This document shows, one piece after another, positions 15,641 through 47,953 of a stretch of DNA of 49,223 nucleotides. The translations under genes and the position numbers were made by a program. Source of the stretch: an uncultured Thiothrix sp. (GTDB lineage Bacteria; Pseudomonadota; Gammaproteobacteria; Poriferisulfidales; GCA-002705445); the NCBI GenBank assembly GCA_902595225.1, contig CACJPG010000007.1, positions 1-49,223 on the forward strand, written 5' to 3'. The notes under the pieces were generated by a model. That model had not been told where the DNA came from. It was given only the letters and a program-made list of their open reading frames with translations, and did no database searches. Numbering within the stretch: the stretch's first letter is position 1; every line of letters begins with the position of its first letter.

Positions 15641-15650
15641 ATTCACATGC

Positions 15651-15980
15651 GAGTCAGCTGTGTAATCGCTTTGTTTAATCAAAGAGGAAAGTCTGGGCTC
15701 CATAGAGTAGAGTGCCAGGTAACACCTGGGAAGTGTGAACTTACGGAAAGTGCAACAGAAAAAATACCGCAATTTTTATTGTAAGGGTGAAATGGTGTGG
15801 TAAAAGCGCACCGCAGATGTAGTAATACTTCTGGCAAGGCAAACCCCACTCGGAGCAAGGCCAAATAGAAAAGCTATAGCGTTACTCGCGCTGCTTTTGG
15901 GTAGGCTGCTAGATGTACTTGGTGACAAGTGCACAAGATTAATGATTACAATCTACAGAACCCAGCTTATAGGCTGACTC
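15651..15980 (+). ncRNA. rnpB: RNase P RNA (type A)
   Basis: The catalytic RNA that matures tRNA 5' ends. The closing P1 stem pairs GAGTCAGCT (15651-15659) with GGCTGACTC (15972-15980), one G-U included. Universally conserved cores are present: GAGGAAAGTC at 15684-15693, GCAAACCCCAC followed by GGAGCAAGGCCAAATAG in the 15838-15868 region, and ACAGAACCC near 15955-15963. The length of about 330 nt is slightly short for gammaproteobacterial type A. It lies 10 bp after rsmI. The ends are inferred from P1 and could be off by a few bases. Confidence 0.95.
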
Positions 15981-16033
15981 ACCATCTTAAAGAAATATTC
16001 AAACTTAAAGTTATTTGTGAACTTATTATTATA

Positions 16034-46352: not shown

Positions 46353-46378
46353 AAAGGCGGTAAATACATACCGCCTTT
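46353..46378 (-). terminator. Rho-independent terminator of the substrate-binding protein gene, possibly bidirectional
   Basis: AAAGGCGGTA (46353-46362) and TACCGCCTTT (46369-46378) form a perfect 10-bp GC-containing stem with a 6-nt loop. On the minus strand the stem runs directly into eight U, a strong terminator 20 nt after the binding-protein gene. On the plus strand only three U follow, so it is weaker for pgeF. Confidence 0.9.
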
Positions 46379-46398: not shown

Positions 46399-47751
46399 TT
46401 ATAAGTCGAAGTTATCTCTGTCATCTTCGTTGTTACAATCACGTTTCTTAATACCATTATCCGCAGCGTACTTTTCAGCACCTTCGTCAATAATAGCTTG
46501 TGATAATGCTACGTCACCTTCAATCCAGTCACTAGCAACAGACCATTGACGTTTCCCGCTAGACCATTGTTGGAATTTAGCAAGATGTCCACCCACGTGG
46601 TCTAGACATGTGATGTTGATTTCAGGAACAAGTCCAGTTGCACCAAGTGCATCTAGATCAGACTTGTTTAAACGTAAGTTCTCAAAACCCCAACGTACTT
46701 GCGCACTGTTGACTTTTGGTCCAAAACGTTCTTGAGCTGTTTTTAAAGCTTCAGTATGGAATACTCCAGCTAATACACCTAGGTTCCAGTATACAGAACC
46801 AATACGGCTTTTATCAGCTAGGTCACCTTTACCAGCTTTGTAAACTGTGTCAACGATATCATCGATAACTTTAGCAACTCTTCCAGCTGGATGAGTTGTA
46901 ATAGCGTAATATCCGTCAGCAGCGTCACCAGCAGGAATAACGTCACCATCTGAGTTACTCCAGATGTTTCCGATTAAGTTTCCAACTGAGAAACCAGTTC
47001 TTACAGCTGTTTGCATAGCTACAGGGTTCATTACCCCCCATCCTCTTAATAGAACATAATCAGGTTTCATCTTACGAATTTTTAACCATTGTGATTGTTG
47101 TTCATTACCAGGATGTGGAACTTCGATAGCTGTATGTTCACAACCATGCTTTTTACACATCATGTCCATAAACATAATAGCTTCACGACCATATGGTGAA
47201 CCGTGGAATAACATAGCGATTTTTTTGCCTTTCAACTTAGCTCTATCTCCTTCAAGTACATCACCGATGAAGTGCATCATAATTGAGTGCTCATCATATG
47301 TGTTAATACCAGGCATAAAGTAGTAAGGGAAAACGTCACCACGTTGTCCAGCTGTTTTTCCATGGTTTACAGCAATGATTGGCATTTTGTCTTTACGACC
47401 TGTTTCAATCAAAGCAGTAGAGATACCCACACTTAATGGGTCAAAGAAAACAGCTCCACCTTCTTTATCTTTTAAACGTTTATAGCATTCAACGCCACGT
47501 TCTACAGAATATTCTGTTTCACACTCTGACCAAACTAACTTCATTCCATTAACACCACCATCACGCATGTTTAATAGATTGTAGTAGTCTAAGATTCCAC
47601 CAAAGTAACCTGTACCACCAACAGCATAAGGGCCTACACGGTAACTTGGGATTGGAACATAAAGTGTATCATCAGCAGCCTGAACTACAGGTGCTGTGAA
47701 AGACATTGAAGCTAAAAGCGCTATACTAGTAATTATTGCTTTTATTTTCAT
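46399..47751 (-). CDS. Periplasmic substrate-binding protein, branched-chain amino acid/amide/urea ABC type
   Basis: A 450-residue secreted binding protein of the Peripla_BP_6 (LivJ-like) family. It has a clear signal peptide cut after 'PVVQA' (about residue 25). The first half has 'GGTGYFGGILDYYNLLNMRDGG' in pattern and an inter-lobe region 'AMLFHGSPYGREAIMFM'. The C-terminus is acidic. No permease or ATPase gene is in the window, so it stands alone. Its base composition is visibly richer in G+C than its neighbours and its codons favour GCT, GGT and AAC, which suggests very high expression or different ancestry. It has a long structured leader and its own promoter and terminator. The substrate is unknown. 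Confidence 0.85.
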   Translation of the reverse strand: MKIKAIITSIALLASMSFTAPVVQAADDTLYVPIPSYRVGPYAVGGTGYFGGILDYYNLLNMRDGGVNGMKLVWSECETEYSVERGVECYKRLKDKEGGAVFFDPLSVGISTALIETGRKDKMPIIAVNHGKTAGQRGDVFPYYFMPGINTYDEHSIMMHFIGDVLEGDRAKLKGKKIAMLFHGSPYGREAIMFMDMMCKKHGCEHTAIEVPHPGNEQQSQWLKIRKMKPDYVLLRGWGVMNPVAMQTAVRTGFSVGNLIGNIWSNSDGDVIPAGDAADGYYAITTHPAGRVAKVIDDIVDTVYKAGKGDLADKSRIGSVYWNLGVLAGVFHTEALKTAQERFGPKVNSAQVRWGFENLRLNKSDLDALGATGLVPEINITCLDHVGGHLAKFQQWSSGKRQWSVASDWIEGDVALSQAIIDEGAEKYAADNGIKKRDCNNEDDRDNFDL

Positions 47752-47919
47752 TTGTACTCCTCCTTAAGAGGTTCATGTTGCAGTTAACTGCAGAATGAAC
47801 AATTTTTATTATTGTTTTCATCCTACTTACTAAAACTCAGGCCTATTTCAAAACGCAGAAATTTATCTGATCCTCCTGATTTTACCTGAGTCCCAACCAG
47901 TCATTAGACTAGTAGGGAA
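47752..47919 (-). other. Structured 5' leader of the substrate-binding protein mRNA, candidate regulatory RNA
   Basis: About 168 nt between the predicted transcription start and the ATG. Reading the minus strand: a hairpin at 47920-47890 (7 bp plus 4 bp around UAAU); a long-range pairing of ACUCAGG (47891-47885) with CCUGAGU (47841-47835) enclosing a small CAGA/UCUG hairpin; a hairpin at 47800-47771 with GUUCAU/AUGAAC arms and the 14-nt palindrome TGCAGTTAACTGCA (47779-47792); and CCUC-UUAAG-GAGG (47771-47759) that covers the Shine-Dalgarno AAGGAGG. The layout looks like a cis-regulatory RNA controlling translation. I do not recognise it as a known riboswitch class. Confidence 0.5.
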
Positions 47920-47925
47920 CTTTCT

Positions 47926-47953
47926 AATTTACTAGAAATATAGGGTTGGTCAA
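47926..47953 (-). promoter_or_regulatory. Candidate sigma-70 promoter of the substrate-binding protein gene
   Basis: On the minus strand TTGACC (47953-47948) is followed by a 16-nt spacer and TAAATT (47931-47926). The -35 matches 5 of 6 consensus bases and the -10 matches 4 of 6. It lies in the gap after proS, so the gene has its own promoter. The rest of the 47954-48019 gap is AT-rich with nothing recognised. Confidence 0.55.

Follow-up and report, generated by a model that had tools for sequence, protein, structure and literature searches.

Upstream of an ABC substrate-binding protein gene in an uncultured Thiothrix sp. lies what comparison across related genomes indicates is a genuine cis-acting structured leader. 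We draw this conclusion because the leader is conserved, its 5' hairpin carries compensatory changes, it matches no known Rfam class, and a promoter lies approximately 170 nt upstream of the gene. In these comparisons, the leader is tied to one gene. Our preferred reading, to which we assign a probability of about one half, is that it resembles the leader of Escherichia coli ompA and would combine a stabilizing hairpin at the 5' end with a module that tunes translation. The stretch of DNA analyzed, referred to here as the window, comprises 49,223 nt of contig CACJPG010000007.1.

The binding-protein gene occupies positions 46399-47751 on the minus strand and encodes a 450-aa protein with a Peripla_BP_6 domain (PF13458, Pfam E 5e-31). 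Its closest solved relative is PDB 4ru0, a putative branched-chain amino acid binding protein (E 1e-114), and the predicted product is a periplasmic substrate-binding protein of the branched-chain amino acid type. An intrinsic terminator, AAAGGCGGUA-UGUAUU-UACCGCCUUU followed by a U run, is located directly 3' of the gene (46353-46378, minus strand), so the mRNA is probably monocistronic. Within the genus, the binding protein is ~97% identical, compared with 64-78% for the proteins of four neighboring genes, and its gene differs by 0.20 at 4-fold sites. The fraction of NNY codons ending in C is 0.54 in this gene versus 0.08-0.32 across all other open reading frames in the window. We read this codon bias and conservation as signs of extreme expression, which makes the binding protein a candidate for the most highly expressed protein of the organism.

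The host appears to be a streamlined, uncultured marine gammaproteobacterium with a genome of ~1.0-1.1 Mb, and the window also carries a bacterial RNase P RNA of class A (RF00010, 316 bits) at 15650-15985. In five assemblies (G007, G009, G113, G120, and G123), a contig ends inside or right beside the binding-protein gene or its leader, a pattern that assembly confused by strain variants or by nearly identical copies might leave. Another assembly, G114, contains two copies (L170 and L181).

A predicted sigma-70-type promoter spans 47926-47953 on the minus strand, with TTGACC at 47953-47948, a 16-nt spacer, and TAAATT at 47931-47926. Both hexamers are retained in 9/9 genus leaders inspected and in the sister genus; the spacer, by comparison, has mostly drifted. 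The promoter was also detected by a consensus scan, but that scan by itself does not rise above chance. Based on the position of the conserved hexamers, transcription is predicted to start at A47921 or G47920, 4-5 nt past the -10 hexamer, and the AGU at this point is conserved across 11 genomes. We therefore infer a leader of ~170 nt with a transcript start around 47920. An earlier reading of the window from sequence only had proposed ~168 nt of transcript before the ATG; the conserved promoter agrees with that length and places the start well away from the ATG. The Shine-Dalgarno sequence, AAGGAGG, is 7 nt from the AUG.

The window leader folds with a predicted minimum free energy of -57.2 kcal/mol, compared with -36.8 ± 4.1 kcal/mol in shuffled sequences (z -4.98). 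When nine leaders were re-tested, eight from the genus and one from the sister genus, their z scores ranged from -2.35 to -4.63, whereas 38 control regions of equal length upstream of other window genes had a median z of 0.05 and a minimum of -2.47. The predicted elements follow one another from 5' to 3' as P1, P2, P3, a palindrome, and a ribosome-binding-site (RBS) hairpin. The four ordered elements of the sequence-only reading were all present in place on the minus strand; its list lacked P3, an AU-rich hairpin at 47826-47790 between the second and third of them. Of the checks which that reading proposed, the search for conservation and covariation returned a conserved leader with compensatory changes in P1, and the search of Rfam returned no known class.

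P1, the 5'-terminal hairpin (47891-47918, minus strand), drifts in sequence while its pairing is kept between species. Arms taken from the same species pair at -8.9 kcal/mol compared with -5.9 kcal/mol when swapped between species, a difference reached in 0/20000 permutations (phylogeny uncorrected), and two P1 pairs show two-sided changes. By these measures, P1 is the best-supported predicted helix of the leader. In 11 genomes, ~3 nt lie between the predicted start and P1, which keeps a short and constant distance from the -10 box. The drift seen in P1 and in the promoter spacer speaks against the locus having recently undergone a sweep or a transfer.

P2 (47836-47890, minus strand) is a predicted 7-bp helix, CUCAGGU/GCCUGAG, closed around a small inner hairpin. 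It is genus-specific and near-invariant (UCAGGAGGAUCAGA ... UUUUGAAAUAGG), with CUCAGG...CCUGAG differing at only a few positions among the 11 genomes compared. The inner hairpin varies, and the internal-loop sequences are near-invariant. All changes in the helix are one-sided (G-C to G-U and U-G to C-G), and no two-sided covariation was found in the P2 helices of the 11 genus genomes; the changes are consistent with pairing, without proving it. The sister genus (L009) has a plain hairpin where P2 would be and retains P1, a (G)GUAGGAUGAA stretch, the palindrome, and the RBS hairpin. Taken with the f2 sequences described below, this shows that the 3' module is old, and P2 appears to be a genus-level addition.

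The middle element had also been likened to glycine riboswitches through the short string CUCAGGUAAAA. This likeness proved to be chance, resting on a 2-base insertion in the window genome; at that spot, the sequence in the ten remaining members of the genus is CUCAGGUAAUCAGG or CUCAGGC(A/G)UCAGG. We rejected a glycine riboswitch (RF00504), for which cmscan yielded no match even at E up to 10 and whose shared string is not conserved.

P3, the AU-rich hairpin GUAGGAUGAA.../...UUCAUUCUGC (47790-47826, minus strand), is kept in nine genus leaders, and covariance model R2, described below, finds its site in the sister genus. An (AAN)5 run lies within it at 47816-47802. Runs of (AAN)4-5 occur in 8/9 leaders tested from family f1, including the diverged sister genus, and arise in mostly 0-1% of shuffles; in the predicted fold the run falls mostly within P3, and it is absent from a second family, f2. 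Next in order is the palindromic core UGCAGUUAACUGCA (47779-47792, minus strand), which is invariant in the genus and sister genus and reads GCAGTTAACTGCAA in the second family. The core, GCAGUUAACUGCAA, is 14 nt long and present in one copy per genome. P3 and the palindrome are conserved too strongly for a covariation test.

An alternative helix, GUUCAU/AUGAAC, can form around the palindrome (47771-47800, minus strand). It is mutually exclusive with P3 and is predicted to be ~1.6-3.2 kcal/mol less stable than P3 in the genus leaders. The Shine-Dalgarno sequence is paired in both competing folds, so no ON/OFF switch can be derived from them. A predicted 5-bp RBS hairpin, CCUCU-UAA-GGAGG (47759-47771, minus strand), covers the AAGGAGG and is retained in families f1 and f2. 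The pairing probability of the Shine-Dalgarno sequence is 0.76 in the genus and 0.73 in f2, compared with 0.41 in 14 control genes. We rejected the idea that this hairpin is ancestral to all orthologs, as the mean in family f46 (0.56) was indistinguishable from that of paralogs (0.55) and other homologs (0.50), and we restrict the claim to f1 and f2. Over its final ~60 nt, the leader hardly varies within the genus. A scan for terminator-like sites inside the leader found none. A leader peptide from an ATG at P3 (AUGAAAACAAUAAU...) was also rejected, since its frame is not conserved and is broken by indels between species.

To gauge selection, we used as a neutral reference four genes near the locus (rluD, nadE, proS, and comL; names assigned from translations). 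Their 4-fold sites differ by ~0.6 within the genus, which, together with the 64-78% identity of their proteins, places neutral sites near saturation. Compared with this divergence, the leader is, as judged from the alignments, under strong purifying selection.

We compared about a dozen leaders from family f1 and six from family f2, which consists of Porisulfidus-type sponge symbionts with a binding protein that is ~67% identical. Searched with a covariance model of P1 and P2 (R1), every one of the 11 genus members gave a single site, and no convincing site came from 102 other relatives or from 369 genomes sampled across the class. A model of P3, the palindrome, and the RBS hairpin (R2) matched this locus in 9/11 genus members and gave one site in the sister genus. 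The two genus members without an R2 match, G007 and G009, lack it because the rest of the leader is absent from their assemblies: the contig carrying P1 and P2 breaks off directly after P2, and the gene is picked up in mid-frame on another contig. R1 and R2 confidently match this locus only and thus reveal no regulon. In f2, GCAGTTAACTGCAA followed by CCTCTTA recurs once per genome and always ahead of the same gene. No leader matched Rfam at the gathering score, and relaxing the threshold to E up to 10 returned only eukaryotic RNAs and rli43, far below threshold. The P2 pattern was absent from viral contigs; a single palindrome match there was judged to be chance, as it sits in apparently repeated coding sequence. 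A literature search on structured RNAs of marine SUP05 found nothing.

The genomic arrangement of the gene differs between the two families. In f2, the order is AMP-binding protein, ATPase, permease, permease, a structured gap, binding protein, and ATPase. In the window genome, the same operon, minus the binding protein, is located at ~200-206 kb of G000:C1 (L137, 6315-11792) and comprises the two matching permeases, two ATPases, and the AMP-binding protein, while the binding-protein gene and its leader adjoin proS. The description of the gene as an orphan thus holds locally and fails genome-wide. Because the leader core sits between the permease and binding-protein genes in f2, and the gene is detached from the operon here, the comparison indicates that the core traveled with the binding-protein gene when it left the transporter operon. 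The AMP-binding protein of L137 seems to lack the usual TSGTTG-type motif, reading YLFDEHEDKI where f2 reads TILLTSGTGR. The f2 sequences (L014-L018) also have another long hairpin, UACUCCCAAAUCUCUCU...AGGGGAGUUUGGGUGUA, which lies ~100 nt before the binding-protein gene, in the gap that separates it from the permease gene. A promoter-like sequence, TTGCT[AT]-17-TA[AC]AA[ACG], overlaps this hairpin in 6/6 f2 sequences; we do not rely on it as an internal promoter, as transcription from it would begin at the hairpin or within it.

The ompA-like reading is drawn from the match between this locus and the ompA stabilizer: a hairpin at the 5' end, a strong Shine-Dalgarno sequence, very high expression, and a monocistronic mRNA. 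In ompA, a 5'-terminal stem-loop is an established mRNA stabilizer, and the message, provided it has a strong Shine-Dalgarno sequence, is stable even without a start codon; it is also a target of MicA and Hfq (PMC7509114, which also summarizes the 5' UTR stabilizer work of Emory, Bouvet, and Belasco, 1992, and Arnold et al., 1998). The present leader likewise has a stem-loop at the very 5' end, as judged from the predicted start, followed by further structure and a strong Shine-Dalgarno sequence, and it precedes a monocistronic gene for an envelope-targeted protein that codon bias suggests is very highly expressed. Unlike ompA, with which it shares no sequence homology, it holds the Shine-Dalgarno sequence in a hairpin and has invariant internal-loop and palindromic sequences. 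By analogy, P1 would deny the 5' end to RppH and RNase E and so stabilize the message, and the conserved middle and palindromic parts would form a translation-tuning module at the Shine-Dalgarno sequence, to which Hfq with an sRNA, or else CsrA, might bind; both proteins are encoded, and the AAN runs resemble Hfq sites. The leader would thereby keep the binding protein in large excess, open to adjustment, over the permease encoded elsewhere. In Clostridia, RNA stem-loops beside the substrate-binding protein gene are associated with an excess of that protein over the permease (PMC9045158). The stem-loops between the permease and binding-protein genes in f2 and f46 are similar in position; unlike the clostridial structures, which are internal terminators downstream of the gene, those described here are upstream, with no terminator-like site in the leader. 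Against the ompA-like reading, a stabilizer role leaves the near-invariant internal loops of P2 unexplained, and a hairpin over the Shine-Dalgarno sequence would lower, not raise, translation unless opened. The weak support for CsrA binding, the placement of the AAN run mostly inside P3, and its absence from f2 also count against it.

A metabolite riboswitch is a rival reading. The sequence-only reading had suggested that the RNA might sense the substrate of the transporter. In such a model, P2 would be an aptamer for the transported substrate or product, and the ligand would shift the pairing of P3 and the palindrome and change access to the Shine-Dalgarno sequence. As is typical of aptamers, P2 has a closed helix, near-invariant internal loops, and a variable inner hairpin. 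Downstream of it lie helices that exclude each other, the gene encodes a transporter subunit, and Rfam offers no match. Like metabolite riboswitches ahead of transporter genes, such as the glycine class, the leader is a compact fold with invariant loop bases in a 5' UTR. Unlike them, it precedes a single gene and has no evident expression platform, and its P2 part was found in one genus only. P2 shows no two-sided change, gives way to a simple hairpin in the sister genus, and occurs once per genome with no regulon, and both alternative folds keep the Shine-Dalgarno sequence paired. The claim of a structured, conserved leader stands, and the step to a riboswitch is unsupported. We consider it rather unlikely that this leader is a metabolite riboswitch, and we hold the same doubt about a version in which P2 serves as a new aptamer, specific to this genus, and the older palindrome and RBS module shared across the order relays its state to translation. 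The drift of P1, the RBS hairpin, and the extreme expression fit a stabilizing and tuning leader at least as well as a riboswitch.

Control in trans could also be the main function, with an Hfq-dependent sRNA or CsrA binding the P3, palindrome, and RBS region to control translation and P1 being secondary. Hfq and CsrA genes are found throughout the order, and the invariant 14-nt core lies beside the Shine-Dalgarno hairpin. (ARN)x Hfq sites occur in mRNA leaders such as rpoS and fhlA (PMC2946933), and the AAN runs of most family leaders, including that of the diverged sister genus, similarly lie upstream of a structured RBS region. In contrast to those leaders, the repeat here is mostly inside a predicted stem-loop, is not kept in f2, and has no known sRNA partner; such runs are also frequent by chance in A-rich RNA. 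The AGGAUG of the leader resembles the CsrA core motif ruACArGGAugu (PMC5694010), but GGA motifs (4-6 per leader) are not clearly above shuffles, which leaves CsrA binding weakly supported. We regard trans control as the main function as improbable, to about the same degree as a riboswitch. A DNA operator is less probable still. In that reading, TGCAGTTAACTGCA, a perfect 14-bp palindrome invariant across the family, would be a transcription-factor site with the RNA fold there as a by-product. However, it lies ~130 bp downstream of the start and has one exact copy per genome; even with 2 mismatches, it is the only site in 4/6 f2 genomes, and sites found elsewhere do not recur as a second target. 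A one-sided flank (...AA) is conserved as well, and P1 and the RBS hairpin stand as RNA features in their own right. Least probable, to the point that we give it hardly any weight, is that the structure in this AT-rich 5' UTR arose by chance or without selection. Any single short stem or AAN run is nothing unusual in such sequence, but the fold z scores, the compensation in P1, and the conservation relative to saturated neutral divergence refute this explanation.

Streamlined marine bacteria often rely on a few very abundant binding proteins, and to our knowledge, how they set the levels of these proteins is poorly known. Here, a conserved leader absent from Rfam appears tied to a single gene for a binding protein of this abundant type, and its core seems to have been carried along with the gene. 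Should P2 turn out to be an aptamer, knowing what it binds would give a lead to what an uncharacterized transporter carries. Were the riboswitch reading true, this RNA would sense the substrate or product of a major uptake system in a streamlined marine bacterium.
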